DNA from: Streptomyces tirandamycinicus
GTDB taxonomy: Bacteria > Actinomycetota > Actinomycetes > Streptomycetales > Streptomycetaceae
Length of the DNA stretch: 64,000 bases
Direction: 5' to 3'
Assembly (NCBI RefSeq): GCF_003097515.1
Contig: NZ_CP029188.1
Coordinates: forward strand, 6,678,531-6,742,530
The position numbers were made by a program, and so were the translations under genes. Each line of letters opens with the position of its first letter. Position 1 is the stretch's first letter. This document shows, one piece after another, positions 7,583 to 63,131 of the stretch. The notes beneath the pieces were generated by a model. That model saw nothing but the letters and a program-made list of their open reading frames with translations, was not told the origin of the DNA and searched no databases.

Positions 7583-8128
7583 ATGACCGTTCGTACGCAG
7601 TCCACCGCCGGCCGCATCGCCCGCCTCCGCAAGCTCTCCGTCGCCGGCATCGCCACCGCGGGTGCCGCGGCAGCGGCCCTCACGCTGGCCCCGTCGCCGG
7701 CGCACGCCGTCGAGCAGGGTTCGGCCGGCCTCGCGACCAGTGGGGCTGTGGCGGCCGAGGCTCCGGCGAAGAAGGAGCAGAAGGCGAAGAAGGGGCAGAA
7801 GCAGTACAAGGACAACCTCGACGGCTGGATCCGTGAGGCCCTGGACGTGATGAAGTCCGAGGGCATCCCGGGCAGCTACGAGGGTCTGCACCGCAACATC
7901 ATGCGTGAGTCCGGCGGCAACCCGAACGCGCAGAACAACTGGGACGTCAACGCCCAGAACGGCACCCCGTCCAAGGGCCTGCTGCAGGTCATCAAGCCCA
8001 CCTTCGACGCCTACCACGTCGACGGCACCGAGCGCGATATGACGGACCCGGTCGCCAACCTCACCGCTGCCGCCAACTACGCCGCCGACCGCTACGGCTC
8101 CATCGACAACGTCGACTCCGCCTACTGA
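7583..8128 (+). CDS. Secreted transglycosylase (SLT domain), Swl-like muralytic enzyme
   Basis: This 181-residue cell-wall hydrolase cleaves peptidoglycan glycan strands outside the cell. The signal peptide spans residues 1-42 (basic MTVRTQSTAGRIARLRK, hydrophobic core, PAHA). A Lys/Ala/Glu linker follows (PAKKEQKAKKGQK). The lysozyme-like SLT domain has the catalytic Glu at about residue 109 in MRESGGNPNA, then NGTPSKGLLQVIKPTF and NLTAAANYAADRYG. ATG 7583 has GGGAG eight bases upstream. The order of secretion signal, short linker and C-terminal SLT domain matches the Streptomyces Swl proteins that act in germination and growth. Its long leader probably provides riboswitch control. Confidence 0.9.
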   Translation: MTVRTQSTAGRIARLRKLSVAGIATAGAAAAALTLAPSPAHAVEQGSAGLATSGAVAAEAPAKKEQKAKKGQKQYKDNLDGWIREALDVMKSEGIPGSYEGLHRNIMRESGGNPNAQNNWDVNAQNGTPSKGLLQVIKPTFDAYHVDGTERDMTDPVANLTAAANYAADRYGSIDNVDSAY

Positions 8129-8566
8129 GCCGCGGCCGCCGCGGGCTTTCCCGGGGGCGGACCCGGGCCCGATCGCCCGCCGCAGGTTCCCCACGGCTGA
8201 TCCGCGCCCCTGTCTCCCCGCCACCGCGGCGGATGCGGGGGCGCCCCTGTCGTTCCCGCTCGTTGCCCCTCGGCCCCCTCGTACCCGGTCGGCCCCCTCG
8301 TTGCCCCTCGGCCCCCTCGTACCCGGTCGGCCCCCGCGCTGCCTTCGGCCCCCCGATCCCGCTGGGTCGCCGCGCGTTTCCCGTGACGGCCCGCCGCCCC
8401 CGGGAACGCCGGGGCGGGGTTCCGGCCACCGGTGAACCACGGCGACCGTCCTGTTCTCCCCGATGGCGTCAACGCCTACTGGCAAGGCGTCACTTGCGCC
8501 GCGATGCTGAAGCGTCGTCACGTGCGCACCGGGTGCGCGTGACCACCCGCCTTCACGGGAGTCGCC
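8129..8566. other. Intergenic region with a 38-bp duplication
   Basis: A 438-base gap between two rightward genes. CCGCGG-CCG-CCGCGG right after the SLT stop (8131-8146) could be a weak terminator. A 38-base sequence is duplicated at 8261-8336. No gene was seen. The promoter for the large downstream gene must lie toward 8400-8560. Confidence 0.5.
8261..8336. repeat. 38-bp direct tandem repeat, two copies
   Basis: The unit starts CGTTGCCCCTCGG at 8261 and again at 8299, with near-identical sequence through CCCGGTCGGCCCC. It lies in non-coding DNA. Confidence 0.85.
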
Positions 8567-11500
8567 GTGCCCTCAGCCGGTTTCAGGAGATCCACGACAG
8601 TCCTGGCGATGTGCTCGGCCCTGGCACTCGGCGCCGCCGGGCCCGCCGCCGCCGGGTCCGCACCCCCACCCGAACCCCTCCCGCGCACCGCGGCCGAGAT
8701 GCTGCGGCCGGTCTCCCCACCGGCCGCCCGCCAGGCGGACCGCGAGCACGGGAACCCCGGCCCGGCGGACCTCGGGACCTTCACCATCGCCGACGGCGAC
8801 GGGCTGGAGACCGCCCGGACCAGCCGCCCGCTCGCCCCCGGCGTCGAACTCGGCTCGTACGACCGGCTGGAGTCGGACACCTGGCTCCGGGTCGACACGA
8901 TCTCCGTCGACCTCACCCGGGGTACGCGGGTGGACTACCTCCACCCGGGCAAGGTCGCCGCCCGGCAGACGGTGTCCCGGATGGCCGCGGAGCACGACCC
9001 CGGACCCGGGCGGCGGACCGTCGCCGCCGTCAACGGGGACTTCTTCGACATCAACCAGACCGGTGCGCCCAGCGGCATCGCCCTGCACGACGGCCGGCTG
9101 GTCAACTCGCCCGCCCCCGGCCGCAACCGGGCCGTCGGCGTCGGCCCCGGGGACGCCGGCCGGGTCCTCCAGCTGTACTTCGAGGGCACCCTGACCCTTC
9201 CCGCGGGCACCCGCCCTCTCGCCGCCCTCAACGCGGCCGACGTCCCCGCGAACGGCGTCGGCGCGTACAACGCCCAGTGGGGCGAGGCGGACCGGGCCCT
9301 CACCGTGGACGGGGCGCGCCGCGCCGCCGAAGTCGCCGTCGCGGACGGCAAGGTGACCGCAGCGGCCGGCCCGCCCGGCAAGGGCCCGGTGCCGCCCGGT
9401 GCGACCGTGCTCGTCGGCCGGGACGCGGGCGCGGACGCGCTCACCGCGCTCGCCGTCGGCGACCCGGTCGGCTGGGAGTACCGCCCGCGCGCCGCGACCG
9501 GAGAGGTCCCGCGCACCGCGATCGGCGCGGGCGAACTCCTCGTGCTCGACGGCGAACCCGTCGACCACGAGGGCGGCGGCAACAACCCGGCCGCCCCCCG
9601 CACCGCGGTCGGCTTCTCCCGTGACGGCGCCGTCATGCGGATCCTCACCGTCGACGGCCGCCAGGCCGACAGCGGCGGCGTGACCCTCACCGAACTCGGC
9701 CTGATGATGCGGCGCGAGGGGGCCCACAACGCCGTCAACCTCGACGGCGGCGGTTCCTCCACCCTCGTCGCCCGCGAGCCGGGCAGCGACACGATGCGGG
9801 TGGAGAACAGCCCGTCCGACGGCACCGAACGGCCGGTACCCAACGGCCTGGCCCTCACCGCGCCCGACGGCAGCGGCGAGCTCAGGGGCTACCGGGTCGG
9901 GACCGCCATGGACCCCGGCGCCGCGCCCACCGCCGACCCGGTCCGGGGCGGTCACCCCGAACGGGTCTTCCCCGGCCTGACCCGCCGCCTCACCGCCGCC
10001 GGGTACGACGAGACCTACGGACCCGCCGAGGGGGCGCCACACTGGTACGCGAGGAACCCCCTGGCCGGACGGGCCGGCCCCGACGGGGTGTTCACCGCCC
10101 GGCACAGCGGCTCCACGGACGTCATCGCGCGGCGGGGGAGTGCCCGCGGAGTCATCCGGCTGACCGTCCTCGGCGAACTGGACCGCATCCGGCCCTCGGT
10201 ACGGCGGGTGGGCCTGGCCGACGCGCAGGCGTCCGGGCGCTTCGGCGTCCTCGGCCTCGACGCGCACGGCACCAGCGCCCCCGTGGAACCCTCCGACGTC
10301 CGGCTCGACTACGACCGCTCCCTCTTCGACATCGCCCCGGACGCCGAGGGCTTCACCGTCCGGGCGCGCACCGCCGAGCCCGTGGCCGGCCGTGTCACGG
10401 CGACCGTGGCGGGCAGGAGCACGGTCGTCGCCGTCACCGTCGGGCTGGCCGCCCACCAGGTCGCCTCCTTCGACGACGCGGGCCGCTGGACCTTCACCGC
10501 CGCCCGTGCCTCCGGCTCGGTCGCGCCCACGGCCGACGGCCGTACCGGCACCGGCCTGGACATGGCCTACGACTTCACCCAGTCCACCGCCACCCGCGCC
10601 GCCTACGCCCATCCGCCGGCGCAGATCCCCGTCGACGGCCAGCCGCAGTCGTTCGGGCTCTGGGTCAAGGGCGACGGCAACGGCGCCTGGCCGACCCTGC
10701 ACCTGAAGGACCAGGCGGGCTCCGACCAGCTGCTCCGGGGACCGTATGTGACCTGGACGGGGTGGCGGCACGTCGAGTTCGCGGTGCCCGCCGGCGTCTC
10801 GTACCCCCTGCGGGTCCACCGCGTCTACCTCGCCGAGACCGCCGCCACCCGCTCGTACCGGGGCCGGGTCGTCTTCGACGAGCTCACGGCGATGGTCCCG
10901 CCCCCGGTGGCGCTGCCCGCCGGGCCGGTCCACCGGGACCCGCTGGTCGGGACCGCCGCGAAGACCGCGAGCCGGGACTGGCGCTTCGCGGTCCTGTCCG
11001 ACGCGCAGTTCGTGGCCCGCAGCCCCGACAGCCAGGCCGTCGCCCAGGCCCGCCGCACCCTGCGGGAGATCAGAGCGGCCCGGCCCGACTTCGTGGTGGT
11101 CAACGGCGACCTGGTCGACGAGGGGTCACCGGCCGACCTGGCGTTCGCCCGCACCGTCCTGGAGGAGGAACTCGGCGGCGGGCCGCCCTGGTACTACGTA
11201 CCGGGCAACCACGAGGTGATGGGCGGCGGGATCGACGACTTCGTCGCGGAGTTCGGGCCGGCCCGGCGCACGTTCGACCACAAGGGCACCCGGTTCATCA
11301 CCCTCGACACCTCCAGCCTCGGGCTGCGCGGCGGCGGCCTCGCTCAGATCAGGGAGCTGCGCGCGCAACTGGACGCGGCGGCCGCCGATCCGCGCGTCGG
11401 CTCCGTGCTGGTCGTCCAGCACGTGCCGCCCCGCGACCCCACACCGCAGCAGGGCAGCCGGCTCGCGGACCGCAAGGAGGCGGCGCTGCTGGAGGGCTGG

Positions 11501-12328
11501 CTGTCCGCCTTCCGCCTGTCGACGGGCAAGGGGGCGGCCTTCGTCGGAGCCCATGTCGGCACCTTCCACGCGGAGCGCGTCGACGGTGTCCCGTACCTGG
11601 TCAACGGCAACTCGGCGAAGACGCCGTCCACTCCGGCGGACGAGGGCGGATTCACCGGATGGTCGCTGGTCGGCGTCGACCGGGTGTCACCCGCCGAGCA
11701 GGCGGTGGCGCGGCACCTGCCGTGGACCGGCGGACCCGACTGGGTGACCGTCCAGGCCCGCGCGCACGTCGACGGGCTCACCCTCGACGCCCCCGCTTCG
11801 GTACCGGCCGGGACCGGGGCCCCCGTCACCGCCGTCGTCCGGCAGGGCCAGGGCCCGGGCGCCCGTGAGGTACCCGCCCGCTTCCCGGTGAGCACCGACT
11901 GGAGCGGGTCGCCCCACCTGTACGTCGGCGATCCCGCCCGCGCCAGACCATGGCACGTCGCGGCGTACGACCCGTCCACGGGCCGCCTCACCGGACTCCG
12001 CCCGGGGACGGCCGTACTCGCGGTGACGGTGAACGGGACGAGGACCGAGTCCCGGGTGACCGTGGCCGCCTCGCCGGCCTCGTACGCCTCGTCGGCTTCG
12101 CATGTCCCGCCGGCCTCGTATGCCTCGTCGGCTTCGCATGTCCCGCCGGCCTCGTATGCCTCGTCGGCTTCCTGCGTCTGGTCGGCCGAGTCGGCCTCGC
12201 ACCCCCTGCGCGCCCCCTGCGCACGCCCGGGCGGCGGCCCGGGTGACGCGACCGCGACGGCTCCCCGGCCGGTGACACCGGCGGGGCTCGCCGGGCGCGG
12301 CGTCGAAGGGATCAGCGGGTCGGGATGA
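8567..12328 (+). CDS. Large secreted phosphodiester glycosidase (NAGPA domain) fused to a metallophosphoesterase
   Basis: This 1253-residue exported protein has a signal peptide at residues 1-30. A NAGPA-type phosphodiester glycosidase domain spans about 90-430, with VNGDFFDINQTGAPSGIAL near 155 and NLDGGGSSTLV near 390. Beta-rich Ig-like and carbohydrate-binding-like segments follow (about 440-790). A calcineurin-like metallophosphoesterase domain covers about 800-1010 with LSDAQF, VVNGDLVDEG, PGNHEVMGGG, VQHVPP and GAHVGTFH. GTG 8567 has GGGAG five bases upstream. The C-terminus carries a repeat PPASYASSASHV (about 2.5 copies). NAGPA domains remove sugars from phosphodiesters and the second domain could cleave the exposed phosphate ester. 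A substrate such as teichoic acid or another cell-wall polymer is inference. A terminator hairpin lies 17 bases after the stop. Confidence 0.88.
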   Translation: MPSAGFRRSTTVLAMCSALALGAAGPAAAGSAPPPEPLPRTAAEMLRPVSPPAARQADREHGNPGPADLGTFTIADGDGLETARTSRPLAPGVELGSYDRLESDTWLRVDTISVDLTRGTRVDYLHPGKVAARQTVSRMAAEHDPGPGRRTVAAVNGDFFDINQTGAPSGIALHDGRLVNSPAPGRNRAVGVGPGDAGRVLQLYFEGTLTLPAGTRPLAALNAADVPANGVGAYNAQWGEADRALTVDGARRAAEVAVADGKVTAAAGPPGKGPVPPGATVLVGRDAGADALTALAVGDPVGWEYRPRAATGEVPRTAIGAGELLVLDGEPVDHEGGGNNPAAPRTAVGFSRDGAVMRILTVDGRQADSGGVTLTELGLMMRREGAHNAVNLDGGGSSTLVAREPGSDTMRVENSPSDGTERPVPNGLALTAPDGSGELRGYRVGTAMDPGAAPTADPVRGGHPERVFPGLTRRLTAAGYDETYGPAEGAPHWYARNPLAGRAGPDGVFTARHSGSTDVIARRGSARGVIRLTVLGELDRIRPSVRRVGLADAQASGRFGVLGLDAHGTSAPVEPSDVRLDYDRSLFDIAPDAEGFTVRARTAEPVAGRVTATVAGRSTVVAVTVGLAAHQVASFDDAGRWTFTAARASGSVAPTADGRTGTGLDMAYDFTQSTATRAAYAHPPAQIPVDGQPQSFGLWVKGDGNGAWPTLHLKDQAGSDQLLRGPYVTWTGWRHVEFAVPAGVSYPLRVHRVYLAETAATRSYRGRVVFDELTAMVPPPVALPAGPVHRDPLVGTAAKTASRDWRFAVLSDAQFVARSPDSQAVAQARRTLREIRAARPDFVVVNGDLVDEGSPADLAFARTVLEEELGGGPPWYYVPGNHEVMGGGIDDFVAEFGPARRTFDHKGTRFITLDTSSLGLRGGGLAQIRELRAQLDAAAADPRVGSVLVVQHVPPRDPTPQQGSRLADRKEAALLEGWLSAFRLSTGKGAAFVGAHVGTFHAERVDGVPYLVNGNSAKTPSTPADEGGFTGWSLVGVDRVSPAEQAVARHLPWTGGPDWVTVQARAHVDGLTLDAPASVPAGTGAPVTAVVRQGQGPGAREVPARFPVSTDWSGSPHLYVGDPARARPWHVAAYDPSTGRLTGLRPGTAVLAVTVNGTRTESRVTVAASPASYASSASHVPPASYASSASHVPPASYASSASCVWSAESASHPLRAPCARPGGGPGDATATAPRPVTPAGLAGRGVEGISGSG
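12075..12175 (+). repeat. 36-bp in-frame tandem repeat at the 3' end of the glycosidase gene
   Basis: About 2.7 copies of a 36-base unit (CCGGCCTCGTATGCCTCGTC followed by GGCTTCGCATGTCCCG) encode SPASYASSASHV-type 12-residue repeats, so copy-number change would keep the frame. Confidence 0.9.
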
Positions 12329-57769: not shown

Positions 57770-58681
57770 TCAGCCCTCCAGTCCCTCCGGTGGTCCCGGT
57801 CCTTCGGGTGGTTCCCATCCCCCCGGTGGTTTCGGTCCCGCCGGTGGTTTCGGTCCCGCCGGTGGTTCCGGTCCCGCCGGTGGTCCCGGCGGCTCCAGCC
57901 GCTCCAGCAGAGCCGGGAGATCGGCGAAGGAGTCCAGGACGTGGTCCGGCGTCCCCGACGCGTCCCGGTGCGTCCCGGGCCGGTACTTGCCCGTCCTGAC
58001 CAGGACCCCGGTGAGCCCCTGGCGCTGGGCCGCCAGGACGTCGGACTCGATGTCGTCACCCACCATGAGCGTCCCGGCGGGGTCGGCGCCCAGGCGGTCC
58101 AGGGCCGCGGCGAAGAACGCCGGCGACGGCTTGCCGAGCACCACCGCCTCGGTGCCGGCCGCCGCCTCGAGACCCGCCAGGAACGCGCCCGAGTCGAGCT
58201 GGAGCCCCGCCTCGGTCCGCCAGTACAGGTTGCGGTGCATGGCCACCAGCCGTGCGCCGCGCTGGAGATGGGCGAACGCCCGGTTCAGTGCCGGGTAGCC
58301 GAACTCGGGGCCCGCGCCGCCGACGACGACCACGTCCGCGGGCGCGCCGTCCTCGGGGCCCACGACGGTGATGCCTTCGAGGTCGCCAGCGATGTCACCG
58401 CTGTTGAGCAGCAGGCAGCGCGCTCCCGGGAAGTGCGCGGCGAGATACACGGCGGTCGCCGCGGGCGCCGTGAGGATGTCGCCGGCGGTCACCGGGAAGC
58501 CGGCGCCGGCCAGCGCGTCGGCGACGGACGCGCGGGTGCGCGACGTGGTGTTGGTGACCAGGGCCAGCGGCACCCCCCGTTCCCGCAGGCGCTCCATCGC
58601 CGCGACCGCTCCCGGCAGCGGCTGGAAGGAGACGGTGAGCACACCGTCGATGTCGATCAGTACCGCGCCGACCCGTCGCAT
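57770..58681 (-). CDS. HAD-superfamily hydrolase, LHPP/NagD-like, with Pro/Gly repeat tail
   Basis: This 303-residue phosphatase has the nucleophile motif LIDIDGVLT (Asp10 and Asp12). Motif II is [11 protein letters not shown], a cap domain carries [19 protein letters not shown], and GKPSPAFF with [14 protein letters not shown] form motifs III-IV. This order fits the LHPP/HDHD2 branch (TIGR01458-like) that removes phosphate from small substrates or phospholysine. The C-terminus adds a PPAGPK-type repeat from an 18-base DNA repeat. ATG 58681 has a -10-like TACGGT seven bases upstream instead of a Shine-Dalgarno. Confidence 0.92.
57820..57890 (-). repeat. 18-bp in-frame tandem repeat in the HAD gene tail
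   Basis: CCCGCCGGTGGTTTCGGT is repeated about four times with small changes and encodes [12 protein letters not shown] hexapeptides, preserving frame on copy change. Confidence 0.9.
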
Positions 58682-58729: not shown

Positions 58730-58774
58730 GCCGCGGTGCGAGACCGGCTCGGGGGTACGGGCTCGCACCGCGGC
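58730..58774 (-). terminator. Terminator of the P450 operon
   Basis: GCCGCGGTGCGAG (58730-58742) and CTCGCACCGCGGC (58762-58774) pair perfectly over 13 bp with a 19-base loop. It lies 18 bases past the P450 stop codon and before the HAD start. Confidence 0.88.
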
Positions 58775-58791: not shown

Positions 58792-60030
58792 TCAGGCGGC
58801 TGCGGGTTCCAGCACGACCGGCAGCTCGGTGAGGCCGCGGAAGGCCGGGAACGGCACCTCCATCCACGCCGGCTCCGCCTGCGGGTCGGCCGGCGCGATC
58901 CTCGGGAACCGCCCGAACAGGCCGCTCAGCGCCAGCTGGGTCTCCATCCGGGCCAGCGGTGCCCCCAGGCAGTAGTGACCGCCGTGCCCGAAGCCGATGT
59001 GGGCGGCGGTGCCCTGGCGGCGCACGTCGAACACGTCCGGGTTTTCGAACTTCAGCGGGTCGCGGTTGGCGGCGAGGAGCGAGATCTGCACCAGTGCGCC
59101 CTTGGGGATCCGGGTGCCGCCGATCTCCATGTCCTCGGTGGCGTACCGGAAGGTGGCGCTCTCGACCGAGCCGTCGAAGCGGACCAGTTCCTCCACCGCC
59201 GGGCCGATCAGCTCCGGGTCCTCCCGCACGGCGCGGAGCTGCGCCGGGTCGGCCAGGAAGTGGTGCACGGCGTTGCCGATGAGGTACGCGGTCGTCTTGT
59301 GCCCCGCGAACATCAGCAGGAAGGCCGTGGAGACCAGTTCGTTCCCGGTCAGCCCGCCCTCCTGGTCCTGGGTGGCGGCGAGCGCGCTGAGCAGGTCGTC
59401 ACCCGGCCGGCGGCGCTTGCGGGCGACGAGTTCGGTGAAGTAGGCGTGGAGGTTCTCCTCCGCCTGCTGCTGGGCCCGCTTGAACTCCTCGCCGAAGCCC
59501 GTCTGCGCCACCGTGGTGGACAGTTCCTGCATCAGCGACCGCTCCTCGGGCGGTACGCCGAGCAGCTCGCAGATCACCGTGATCGGCACCGGGAAGGCGA
59601 ACGCCGGCAGCAGGTCGAACGGCTCCCCGGTCGGGCACGCGTCCAGGAGCCGGTCCACGATGTCCTGGATCTTCGGCCGCAGGGCCTCGACCCGGCGCGG
59701 GGTGAACTCGGAGTTGACGAGCTTGCGCAACCGGGTGTGCTTGGGCGCGTCGGAGTTGAGCATGTTGTCGTCCAGCGCCACCGACGAGTCGCCGAAGATC
59801 CTCCGGTACGCGTCCATGGCCCCGTACATGTCCTTGCTCAGCCGGGGGTCCGACAGCGCCGCGCGGGCGTCCTCGTACCGGGTGATCAGGTACGTCTCGA
59901 TGCCGTGCGGCGGTGTCATCGGGCAGACGGGACTGGTGTCCCGCAGGTGCGCGTACACCGGGTGCGGGTTCCGGCGGAACTCCGCGGTGCACCGCTCGGC
60001 TGCGGCGACGGGGTCGTGCGTCGTGGTCAC
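58792..60030 (-). CDS. Cytochrome P450, CYP107-like
   Basis: This 412-residue soluble bacterial P450 has the heme thiolate Cys354 in GFGHGGHYCLGAPLARME, the K-helix ExxR at Glu281-Arg284 and the I-helix AGHKTT at 242-247. HTRLRKLVNSEFTPRRVE is the C-helix region. In most bacterial P450s the residue before TT is Glu or Asp; here it is Lys245, an unusual replacement in the proton-delivery pair. The start is GTG 60030 with AGGAG six bases upstream, inside the amidohydrolase stop (GTGA). It is the last gene of the four-gene operon. No ferredoxin or reductase gene is seen in the window, so it would use general electron donors. Confidence 0.95.
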   Translation of the reverse strand: MTTTHDPVAAAERCTAEFRRNPHPVYAHLRDTSPVCPMTPPHGIETYLITRYEDARAALSDPRLSKDMYGAMDAYRRIFGDSSVALDDNMLNSDAPKHTRLRKLVNSEFTPRRVEALRPKIQDIVDRLLDACPTGEPFDLLPAFAFPVPITVICELLGVPPEERSLMQELSTTVAQTGFGEEFKRAQQQAEENLHAYFTELVARKRRRPGDDLLSALAATQDQEGGLTGNELVSTAFLLMFAGHKTTAYLIGNAVHHFLADPAQLRAVREDPELIGPAVEELVRFDGSVESATFRYATEDMEIGGTRIPKGALVQISLLAANRDPLKFENPDVFDVRRQGTAAHIGFGHGGHYCLGAPLARMETQLALSGLFGRFPRIAPADPQAEPAWMEVPFPAFRGLTELPVVLEPAAA

Positions 60031-61064
60031 GGACGGCTCCTGAGGTCGAAGAGGGCCTCGGCGTTGCCGCCGAGGATGCGCTGCTGGGCCGCCCTGTCGA
60101 GGGGCAGCTTCTCGATCATGCGGATGAGGTCCTCGAGGGGCACCGACAGCGGCGGCGAGTCGGTGCCGAACAGCATCCGCTCGGGCCCGAGCACCTCCGC
60201 GTTGAGGCTCAGATGGGCGGGGCTGAACGGGCTGGTGTCGACGTACATGCGGCGCAGTGCGGCGCCCGGGTCGGGCGACGCCTGGACGGTCGGCTCCGCG
60301 GCCCCCGGGGGCCGGCCGGACGGAGGCCGTCCGGACCGGGTCCCGCCGGCCCCCTGCCGGCCGGCCTCCGGCGGGGCGGAGGGCGGCGCGCCCCCGCCCC
60401 AGTGCCGGGGGCGTGCCGCCATCTGGAGGCGCTCCGGCAGCAGGGCCATGGCCCCGCCGCCGGTCGCGCCGATCAGCCGCAGACCGGGGTACTTGTCCAG
60501 CCACCCCGCGAAAGCGATCATGGCCATGCCCATGGTGACGTCGCCGAAACGGCCGATCTGCTCGACGAAGGCGATGTTCTCCACCCGCTCCGTGCCGATC
60601 GGTTCGGCCGGCGCGTGCACCATGACGGGCACTCCCACCTCGGCGGCCAGCGCGAAGAAGGAGTCCGCCCGCGGCGAGCCGAGCAGCTCACCGTGCACGC
60701 TGGAAGTGGTGATCAGGCCGACGAAGGCGGGGTCCGCCAGCGTCTCCCGTACCCCTTCCAGATGGTCGTCGTCCCCGAACGGGTTCGCGTACACGTACCC
60801 GCGCAACTGGTCCGGGAACTCGGTGATCAAGCCCGACATCCACGCGTGGAAGCCACGCAGCCGGTCGCGCGGTTGCTTGTAGTTGTCCACGCCCGGAACC
60901 CGCGCCATCGCCCCGGCGCCGACGGGGCTGCCGATGATGGTGAGGTCGATTCCGGCCTGGGCGCGGGCGGCGAGCATGCCGTCCACGTCGGTCAGGCTGG
61001 GGGGCATGGGGAAGCGTTTGGCCGCCTCCGGCGGGGACAGGTGTCCGTGGATGTCGATGATCAT
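60027..61064 (-). CDS. Amidohydrolase-2 family protein (ACMSD-like)
   Basis: This 345-residue TIM-barrel metal hydrolase or decarboxylase has His6-x-His8 (DIHGH), His150 (VMVHAPAE) and Asp302 (FGTDSPP), a full zinc set by comparison with ACMSD. The family's usual HGGG segment, whose His is catalytic in ACMSD, reads ATGGGAM with Thr201 in its place. A Pro/Gly/Arg-rich insert of about 34 residues (225-258) interrupts the barrel just after that. The ATG overlaps the oxidoreductase stop (ATGA), and its own stop overlaps the P450 start. Expected activities are non-oxidative decarboxylation or C-C/C-N hydrolysis of an aromatic or keto acid; altered chemistry is possible. Confidence 0.92.
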   Translation of the reverse strand: MIIDIHGHLSPPEAAKRFPMPPSLTDVDGMLAARAQAGIDLTIIGSPVGAGAMARVPGVDNYKQPRDRLRGFHAWMSGLITEFPDQLRGYVYANPFGDDDHLEGVRETLADPAFVGLITTSSVHGELLGSPRADSFFALAAEVGVPVMVHAPAEPIGTERVENIAFVEQIGRFGDVTMGMAMIAFAGWLDKYPGLRLIGATGGGAMALLPERLQMAARPRHWGGGAPPSAPPEAGRQGAGGTRSGRPPSGRPPGAAEPTVQASPDPGAALRRMYVDTSPFSPAHLSLNAEVLGPERMLFGTDSPPLSVPLEDLIRMIEKLPLDRAAQQRILGGNAEALFDLRSRP

Positions 61065-61948
61065 TTGTCGGTTCCCGGTTTCCGTGTGAGGGCGCGGGTG
61101 ACCGCGGCGCAGTCCTCGTCACCGAACCCGTGCTCGGTGGCGCGGACATGGGTCTCCGCGGCCGCCGCGGTGAGCGGCAGGCTCAGGCCGGAGGCTTCGG
61201 CCTGCTCCGTTGCGAGCATGAGGTCCTTGGCCATCAGCCGCAGCCGGAAGTCCGGCTCCTCGAAGCGCCCCGAGGCGAGGCGCCGGGACTTGAACGACAT
61301 GACCGGTGACGCGAAGCCGCTGCCCGCTATGGTGCGCAGGACCTGCTTCCGGTCGAGCCCGGAGGCGGCCGCCAGCTCGGCGGCCTCGGCCATCGCCTGC
61401 ACCTCTATGCCCATCAGCAGGTTGAGGAGCAGCTTCATCCGCATGCCGGAACCGAGTGCGCCCAGATGGACGACCTCCTTGGCCAGCATCTCCAGCAGCG
61501 GCCGGCCTGCGGCGAAGACCCGCTCCTCGCCGCCCACGAACAGGCGCAGTTCGCCGTCGCGGGCGTGGTCGCGGTTGCCGAGCATGCCGACGTCCAGGAC
61601 GGCGGGCGCGTCCCCGGCGAGGCGGACGACCTCGTCGGGCGCGACGGTGCTGGCGCAGATCAGGGCGCCGGGGTAGCCGCCCCGGGCCAGGATCCCGTCC
61701 GGGCCGCGCAGCACCGTCCGCAGGGCCTCGCCGTCGGCGACGGTGCAGATGGCGGCACTCGTGCCCTCGACCGCCTCGCTCGGGCGGGACGCCGCGAAGG
61801 CGCCCGCCCTGGCGAACGGCTCGGCACGCTCCGGGGTGCGGTTCCACACCCGGACCTGTATGCCTTGACCGAGGAGGCGTGAGGCCAGGCCGCCGCCCAT
61901 GGTGCCGAGACCGAGGACGGCGACGGGGCCGTTCGTGGTGTAGGTCAT
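61061..61948 (-). CDS. NAD(P)-dependent oxidoreductase, beta-hydroxyacid dehydrogenase family
   Basis: This 295-residue two-domain dehydrogenase resembles 3-hydroxyisobutyrate dehydrogenase. Rossmann motif GLGTMG is at 13-18 (VAVLGLGTMGGGL), NRTPERAE suggests NADP preference, and catalytic Lys172 is in GMRMKLLLN. The lysine argues against an imine reductase. The substrate loop, usually DAPVSGG, reads DVGMLGN (about 119-125). ATG 61948 has GGAG five bases upstream and overlaps the upstream ABM stop (ATGA). It is the second gene of the operon and likely reduces or oxidises an intermediate handled by its neighbours. Confidence 0.93.
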   Translation of the reverse strand: MTYTTNGPVAVLGLGTMGGGLASRLLGQGIQVRVWNRTPERAEPFARAGAFAASRPSEAVEGTSAAICTVADGEALRTVLRGPDGILARGGYPGALICASTVAPDEVVRLAGDAPAVLDVGMLGNRDHARDGELRLFVGGEERVFAAGRPLLEMLAKEVVHLGALGSGMRMKLLLNLLMGIEVQAMAEAAELAAASGLDRKQVLRTIAGSGFASPVMSFKSRRLASGRFEEPDFRLRLMAKDLMLATEQAEASGLSLPLTAAAAETHVRATEHGFGDEDCAAVTRALTRKPGTDK

Positions 61949-62283
61949 GACGTCTCCTTCACGGTCTCCATGACGACTCGGAACCTCAGGGACTGCGTCG
62001 AGTCGACCCATTCGCGGAGCGGGGCCACCAGGGCGCGGTGGTCGTCGCTCTGCTGCCAGGCGAAGAAGTGCTCGGGAGTCTCCCACTCGCTGGTGATCAC
62101 CCACTGACGGGAGTCGTCGACGGGCTCACCGAGCCGCTCGACGATGTGGCCGGGAGTGCCGGCGACGGACTTCCGGAGCTTGTCGTACATTTCCAGGAAC
62201 CCCTCTTCGCCGCCCTCGATGACCCGGACCGCGAAAACCACGGACAGCCTGTCGTTCTGTCGGCCGTTCTGCACAGTGCCCAT
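61945..62283 (-). CDS. ABM-domain monooxygenase-like protein
   Basis: This 112-residue ferredoxin-like alpha-beta protein of the antibiotic-biosynthesis-monooxygenase family shows VVFAVRVIEGGEEGFLEMY, HIVERLGEPVDDSRQWVI and SEWETPEHFFAWQQSD, with a C-terminal beta strand RFRVVMETV. Such proteins are cofactor-free monooxygenases on (hydro)quinones or heme-degrading or small-molecule-binding proteins. ATG 62283 has AGGAGG four bases upstream and begins the operon. A long gap of 848 bases precedes it and presumably holds the promoter. Confidence 0.9.
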   Translation of the reverse strand: MGTVQNGRQNDRLSVVFAVRVIEGGEEGFLEMYDKLRKSVAGTPGHIVERLGEPVDDSRQWVITSEWETPEHFFAWQQSDDHRALVAPLREWVDSTQSLRFRVVMETVKETS

Positions 62284-63131
62284 GTCTCCTCCTGATGGTG
62301 AGAACCGGCGGGACACGCTTTCTAAGGACTCATGGCCCCTGGGGGGCTGCAACTCCGAATGGCGGACACCCCAATGGGCGCAGGGGGTACCGCTCCGTGA
62401 TTAGTCCATGCGGGTGAGTGACCAAAGGGTGCCGGACATGCGGGGCGAGGGCGTTCCGGGACCCCGTGAACCGGGTTGTGTTCCCCCTTCGGGCACCGGT
62501 CACCACACGGCCGGGCGGCCTGCCCGCCGTTCGGCTGTACGAAAGCCGCCCGATGGCCCAACGCCCGGGCGGCCGACCGGGCGCCTTGCGGCCGGGCCGG
62601 GGCAGGCGGGCCGGTTCCGCCGCCGCCCTCCGGCACTCCGGCCCGGAGTCCTTCGCGGGTGCCGTCCGGCCGTGCACTCCGGTCGCGCCGGTCGCCCCGT
62701 TCTGCTGGTCACTCCGTTCGCGCCGTTCGGCCCGTCCGTCCGTTCGCGCCGTTCGCGCTCTTGGGCCCGTCCGTCCGTGCGTGCCGTTCGCGTCGTCCGG
62801 CCCGCTCGCCATCACGCCGTGCACGTCGTGCACCGGCTCTCAGCGCACGGCACCACGGCCGCCGCCGGCCGGGCGAGCGGGGCCGTGAAGCGGCGGAGCG
62901 GGACGGCCGCGAGGACTCAGGCCGCGATGGCCACCCGCGGCCGGGGCCGCCGGGGCCGCCCGGTAGCGGGGAGCCCCGGCGCACCACGCGGGCCCGCGCG
63001 GTAAGAGCGCGCGGCCCGGGCGCCCCGTCCGCGACGCACCGGTTCCGTGCGGTTCGGCGCCGCGGGCCGCACGGGGCGGCGCCGGACACCCGCTGCCCGC
63101 CCCGCGGCCGGTGGGATCGGGAGCGGCGGGC
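62284..63131. other. Long intergenic region upstream of the P450 operon
   Basis: This 848-base gap is the longest in the window and lies between pgm (transcribed toward it) and the ABM gene. Imperfect repeats of CCGTTCGCGCCGTTCG/GCCCGTCCGTCCG lie at about 62690-62800. ATTAGTCCATG near 62400 is the only A/T-rich patch. Open frames here are Arg/Pro/Ala-rich and unlike proteins. It should hold the operon promoter and the pgm terminator, neither recognised. Confidence 0.55.

Follow-up and report, generated by a model that had tools for sequence, protein, structure and literature searches.

What does a compact oxidative operon act on when no polyketide synthase (PKS) gene stands beside it? The question is raised by four genes of Streptomyces tirandamycinicus, encoding an ABM-domain protein, a beta-hydroxyacid-dehydrogenase-like reductase (BHAD), an amidohydrolase of the ACMSD fold (AMH) and a cytochrome P450, which follow one another head to tail on the minus strand at positions 58792-62283 of the stretch analysed here (64,000 nucleotides of contig NZ_CP029188.1, hereafter the window). 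A sequence-only reading had taken them for a small, self-contained tailoring or catabolic pathway that could not be matched to a described one. Our comparison of gene order, of genomes with and without the operon, and of related loci points elsewhere. With a probability of about 65%, the operon is a satellite tailoring unit that acts in trans on the WhiE-type spore-pigment polyketide.

A conserved four-gene operon

Profile matches place each protein in the family that the sequence-only reading had given it. The first gene (61945-62283) encodes a WhiE-ORFI-type ABM-domain protein of 112 aa, matched to PF03992 with an E value of 2e-14 and 53.7 bits against a cut-off of 23.1. It is followed by the NAD(P) reductase BHAD (295 aa, 61061-61948; PF03446 and PF14833), by AMH (345 aa, 60027-61064; PF04909, Amidohydro_2) and by the P450 (58792-60030; PF00067), which starts with GTG, carries the I-helix sequence AGHKTT and the heme motif FGHGGHYCLG, and groups in a tree with P450s embedded in whiE loci. 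The claimed four-nucleotide overlaps (ATGA, ATGA and GTGA) can be read directly at the three junctions and are conserved in relatives, with 27, 30 and 30 of 32 complete relatives showing a spacing of exactly -4 nt.

These relatives come from a search with AMH, limited to one genome per species, which returned 57 loci. The full order ABM-BHAD-AMH-P450 is present in 32 of them, all from Streptomyces except one from Peterkaempfera (L037), and it is kept at protein identities of 65-77%, Peterkaempfera included. Co-conservation of gene order, which had been suggested as a check, thus extends beyond close relatives. Among the other loci, six stop at or close to the end of a contig (L040, L041 and L046-L049, with L040/L048 and L041/L049 representing the two operon ends of one strain per pair), L043 and L045 are diverged, and L050-L065 are 16 remote amidohydrolases without the operon. 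In the stretches compared among the fetched relatives, the genes flanking the operon in the window were found in L009-L011 only, so that the order of the unit is constant while its surroundings change. At E 1e-60 the operon BHAD occurs in 5 of 60 congeneric genomes of an even sample, in addition to its own genome. The four genes form a real, conserved operon, and the kept order supports the view that they are one oxidative tailoring unit.

Association with whiE

WhiE-ORFI served throughout as the marker of whiE (E <1e-100 in the sample), both in genomes holding the operon and in an even sample of 61 genomes that includes the one studied here. The 34 loci taken for this search represent 33 genomes (L033 was left out), of which 31 have the complete operon; L040, L041, L044 and L046-L049 were left out of the searches of operon genomes for KSalpha and WhiE-ORFI. 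The marker is present in 31 of the 31 operon genomes searched (in two pieces in G003, and as 314 of 373 residues in G028) against 29 of the 55 operon-free sampled genomes, a difference with a Fisher p of 9e-7, uncorrected for kinship; across the whole sample it is found in 35 of 61. A KSalpha gene lies within 2 kb of WhiE-ORFI in 29 of the 31 operon genomes, while G028 has both on different contigs. Two or three KSalpha matches were obtained in 19 of the 31. In 11 (many of the genomes being drafts of several contigs) the KSalpha beside WhiE-ORFI is the single match at E 1e-100, which favours the whiE product as the substrate. Three genomes were seen to have two WhiE-ORFI copies: G087 (C1:7079765 and 7704633), G072 and G075, the second copy being in two pieces in the latter two.

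In the P450, all 38 operon rows read AGHKTT or AGHKST in the I-helix, and AGHK[ST]T also occurs in five whiE-embedded rows; Thr or Ser-Thr is present and Lys occupies the acidic position in every one of them, which makes this Lys a mark of the clade. Seven other P450s of the genome were compared; xGxETT stands in four of them, and the closest of the seven reaches 46% identity. In a tree, a branch supported at 97/98 separates the 38 operon and five whiE-embedded P450s from these seven, which are long-branched.

Matches to the P450 at E 1e-110 occur in 20 sampled genomes. Nineteen read AGHK and all of these are whiE-positive (in G049, G063 and G067 the motif was read through L019, L012 and L009, seemingly the same genomes by coordinates). 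The twentieth, in the whiE-negative genome G051, reads AGHEST and is the P450 of the PKS cluster L151. An AGHK P450 with an amidohydrolase nearby was found in 19 of 35 whiE-positive and 0 of 26 whiE-negative genomes (Fisher p 2e-6). A P450 chosen as an accessory-gene control proved to be near-universal (58 of 61 genomes) and therefore serves only as a detection control and tree marker; its presence in 25 of the 26 whiE-negative genomes indicates that detection works there. On a tree of 58 tips, dependence of the P450 on whiE beats independence (likelihood-ratio statistic 12.1, p 0.0023), with 6 changes of the P450 label and 14 of whiE. This test uses a one-gene tree with fitted rates at their bounds and leaves out G050, G063 and G083, in which the search did not recover the marker.

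Relatives of the operon genes are also found within whiE itself. Five sampled genomes have a whiE locus (L136-L140) that contains a P450 63-64% identical to that of the operon, an adjoining ABM gene, an amidohydrolase (AMH2) 26-27% identical to AMH, and a WhiE-VIII-type flavin-dependent monooxygenase (FMO); in L138, AMH2 was recognised from the alignment and not from its blast label. Elsewhere, an AGHK P450 lies near AMH2 in stretches that show no whiE core (L146, L148-L150, L153 and L154), a pairing that in L147 is given by coordinates. L146 keeps the FMO gene, and the 4-kb contig L152 holds AMH2, FMO and an incomplete P450. Like the operon, L148, L149, L150, L153 and L154 (L147 by coordinates) have an AGHK P450, 50-54% identical, beside an amidohydrolase in a whiE-positive genome; unlike the operon, they lack a labelled ABM or BHAD gene, and their amidohydrolase is of the AMH2 subfamily. 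AMH2 at 50% or more is present in 13 genomes, which are precisely those that have an AGHK P450 but no operon; at E 1e-50 it has no match in any of the six sampled operon genomes.

Further relatives lie in type II PKS clusters. In Streptomyces coacervatus (L043) a diverged BHAD-AMH-ABM set (49, 62 and 47% identity) is part of such a cluster, close to KSalpha, KSbeta, cyclase and SchA/CurD genes, and Amycolatopsis anabasis (L045) has AMH and BHAD homologues (41 and 39%) in a similar one. The KSalpha, KSbeta, ACP and ARO genes of L151 in G051 are bordered by genes for a P450 (48%), a BHAD (35%), an ABM protein and a SchA/CurD protein. These three loci resemble the operon in having BHAD, with or without AMH and ABM, beside KSalpha, KSbeta and cyclases; the L151 P450 differs in reading AGHEST, not AGHK. 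By eye, L045 also shows a diaminopimelate-epimerase-like frame and an NRPS-like adenylation gene (10296-11903 and 7596-9419) near the AMH and BHAD homologues. L141, an ABM gene in a PKS cluster of a whiE-negative genome, was considered as a counterexample and set aside, since no operon BHAD, AMH or P450 is labelled there. The rishirilide gene rslH, a putative and non-essential amidohydrolase in the accessible part of its report (PMC7221717), was not used as a precedent.

The host genome, a single contig of 7.29 Mb, has two type II PKS loci, whose types were judged from their genes: whiE at 0.29 Mb and an anthracycline-like locus at 6.37-6.40 Mb. The latter (G000:C1; L073 and L074) combines a type II PKS with sugar genes, glycosyltransferases and a KSIII-like gene, and was called anthracycline-like by eye. 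Beside the operon, reading by eye revealed no PKS gene in the 52-64 kb part of the window, as the sequence-only reading had noted for its surroundings.

Active sites and flanking sequence

Three of the four proteins had been said to be atypical at usually conserved positions, and this is the case: the P450 Lys, a Thr in AMH and the motif LGN in BHAD are common to relatives. Decayed enzymes were considered and rejected, because every aligned operon relative has the same unusual residues, which hence are signatures, not decay. BHAD has its nucleotide-binding motif GxGxxG as GLGTMG, and Lys172 and Asn176 are invariant in 12 aligned rows (L043, L045 and L151 included), which also have Gly124-Asn125 and LM-x-KDL in common. 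In beta-hydroxyacid dehydrogenases Lys and Asn are catalytic, and SGG is the usual substrate-carboxylate motif. At its place we find LGN in nine operon rows and L043, and IGN in L045 and L151, which would suit an enzyme whose substrate is not a small hydroxy acid.

The AlphaFold model of AMH (mean pLDDT 75.5) is closest to ACMSD and to 5-carboxyvanillate and dihydroxybenzoate decarboxylases, with TM scores of about 0.6-0.7. H6, H8 and H150 are invariant in 23 rows and the Asp of GTDSP is present; we take these HxH, His and Asp positions to be ACMSD-type metal ligands. At the position that presumably corresponds to ACMSD His228, the acid/base residue, Thr is found in 8 of 8 aligned operon rows and L043, Asn in L045 and His in three AMH2 rows. 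AMH thus shares its fold and metal-site positions with ACMSD and the aromatic-acid decarboxylases (PDB 4ofc, 4l6d and 2dvt) and differs from them in its identity of about 17%, in this Thr and in a Gly/Pro/Ala-rich insert of low confidence (residues 221-258, 60291-60404 on the minus strand; pLDDT <50), the length of which varies among relatives.

The ABM protein has as its best PDB sequence matches 9lmn and 9lmm, the whiE-locus 42.8 kDa protein, and, across 85 residues, is 45% identical to the ABM half of its own genome's WhiE-ORFI. By analogy, ABM proteins of this kind may oxidise their substrate or guard fidelity; for the ABM protein ForS, the accessible part of the report has its authors proposing a non-catalytic fidelity role (PMC6689052).

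What we infer of the substrate, of the order and kind of reactions and of the timing and control of the operon in sporulation can be put as follows. The whiE type II PKS, about 6.4 Mb away, would build an aromatic polyketide, which the operon enzymes would modify during sporulation. The ABM protein could oxidise a phenolic ring or keep the folded intermediate on course, the P450 could hydroxylate or couple rings, the BHAD-like enzyme could reduce a carbonyl or quinone-type group, and AMH could remove a carboxyl group or catalyse some other cleavage or hydration of the ring system.

The upstream region offers a hint, from sequence motifs, of BldM-WhiI-type control. As far as the accessible text of the study goes, BldM-WhiI heterodimers control Group II genes, whiE included, through TGnnCCGnnCGGGTGA (PMC4125116). 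A candidate Group II-like box, TCACCCGCATGGACTA (62402-62417, minus strand), starts 134 nt before the first ATG and has mismatches at 2 of 12 positions. Motif scans were made on the 35 aligned upstream rows except L046, which contains Ns. Of 34 upstream regions, 31, the window's among them, carry half of the BldM-WhiI site, TCAC[CT]CG, some 110-160 nt ahead of the ATG, against 58 of 3389 random stretches. The full site with at most one mismatch occurs in 13 of 34 regions against 17 of 1970 random stretches (the rows being related), and 11 of those 13 have it 134-136 nt upstream of the ATG. The most conserved long block in the 35-row alignment is another one, CGGAGTTGC (62349-62357, minus strand), which is more conserved than the candidate box and is not kept in L037; together with a nearby ATGAGTC block it is almost invariant across the aligned operon species, and the pair was matched to no known site.

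On the other side of the operon, 3' of the P450 gene, lies a hairpin (58730-58774, no strand assigned) with arms of 17 nt that are 94% complementary. It had been described as a perfect 13-bp terminator. The 13 perfect pairs are there, but no T-run follows them and the terminator scan does not list the hairpin, which leaves a terminator role unproven. Farther downstream, a HAD-like phosphatase has a Pro/Gly-rich repetitive tail (57770-57905).

Weighing the readings

Several observations count against a role in spore-pigment tailoring. The operon lies outside the whiE cluster, at 6.74 Mb on the same contig and about 6.4 Mb from it, and only 6 of the 35 whiE-positive sampled genomes, this one included, have it. 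No AGHK P450 is found at E 1e-110 in 16 of those 35 genomes, so whiE can do without the P450. L044 has AMH with no P450 in the 5.5 kb downstream. The whiE-embedded amidohydrolase belongs to a different subfamily from AMH, none of the five whiE loci L136-L140 contains a BHAD, and AMH lacks the ACMSD-type acid/base His. In G021 the operon is complete (L029) with no KSalpha at 1e-100; its L117 (4131 bases) is a whiE remnant holding ORFI, FMO and methyltransferase genes, the PKS core being gone between ORFI and the methyltransferase, which could reflect recent loss of the core or another substrate. As for control, TCACCCGCATGGACTA with two mismatches is at chance level in the window (26 found, 25 expected), and the site with at most one mismatch stands upstream of 1 of 12 whiE-embedded or satellite P450s, some of whose gene starts are approximate.

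Another aromatic polyketide of the same cell, such as the product of the anthracycline-like cluster at 6.37-6.40 Mb, could be the substrate instead, and the two or three KSalpha matches in 19 operon genomes would suit this, as would the fact that L043, L045 and L151 have their BHAD and AMH relatives in type II clusters without the standard whiE layout. We nevertheless judge it unlikely, given WhiE-ORFI in all 31 operon genomes searched and 11 in which the whiE KSalpha is the only one at E 1e-100; for this last reason a link with the genome's own anthracycline-like cluster is not favoured. An improbable alternative is a self-contained, non-polyketide small-molecule pathway, anabolic or catabolic, in which the whiE link would be inherited history. 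No PKS gene was seen adjoining the operon, G021 keeps it without a PKS core, and breakdown of aromatic acids is a frequent role of amidohydrolases with the ACMSD fold. This reading is opposed by the relatives that lie in type II PKS and whiE loci, by an ABM protein nearest to WhiE-ORFI, and by a whiE association that survives the tree-based test, albeit on one gene tree.

These results bear on how the sequence-only reading had presented the operon. Its genes most likely act on a product made elsewhere, by whiE, so that the description as self-contained is not supported. Nor is the view that they cannot be matched, since all four families have relatives in type II PKS clusters, and the P450 and ABM families in whiE loci as well. 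No support was found for a catabolic role, which is not favoured with relatives lying in PKS clusters. A further possibility, which we consider very improbable, retains the sporulation link and has the ABM protein and AMH serve a pigment-making complex as non-catalytic scaffolds or fidelity factors. The role proposed for ForS, in the part of that report available (PMC6689052), and the loss of the family's active-site His from AMH agree with it, while the HxH, His and Asp positions retained by AMH and the Lys and Asn retained by BHAD argue for catalysis. Tailoring of the WhiE-type polyketide remains the reading we prefer.

Streptomyces taxonomy has long made use of spore colour. With a compact and movable cassette following whiE, there would be four named genes from which to explain pigment diversity, and whether small movable gene sets help to set spore colour becomes testable; such a cassette also illustrates that a single-locus reading of a pathway can miss part of it. 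We tentatively extend this to a broader proposal, about which we have more doubt than confidence: the AGHK P450 and amidohydrolase may be an unrecognised maturation core of the spore pigment in about half of whiE streptomycetes, carried by exchangeable cassettes, at most one per sampled genome, that help to decide pigment structure and colour. The cassette types would be the whiE-embedded P450-ABM with AMH2 and FMO, the free P450-AMH2 pair and the free ABM-BHAD-AMH-P450 operon. Titles and abstract beginnings in the open-access literature, subscription journals lying outside the search, yielded no description of the four-gene unit or of the P450-amidohydrolase core. A 2014 paper states, in its accessible part, that no species had yet had the structure of its spore pigment determined (PMC4125116).

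The closest known system is the whiE locus of S. coelicolor and relatives, with which the operon shares the ABM family of WhiE-ORFI and, in five sampled whiE loci, the combination of P450, ABM and amidohydrolase. It differs from whiE in lying about 6.4 Mb away, in having BHAD and in using another amidohydrolase subfamily. S. coelicolor also has SCO7449-7451, which is, like the operon, a remote locus and includes a WhiE-ORFI paralogue; the accessible text reports that its deletion altered pigmentation and proposes a role in pigment processing (PMC3878966). Unlike the operon, SCO7449-7451 encodes a membrane protein, a sortase and the ORFI paralogue, and that text names no P450, BHAD or amidohydrolase in it (PMC3878966). 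One change in WhiE-VIII, according to the available portion of another study, accounts for grey versus green spores (PMC8788739). With these precedents, a pigment pathway split between whiE and a distant tailoring operon would not be new in kind.

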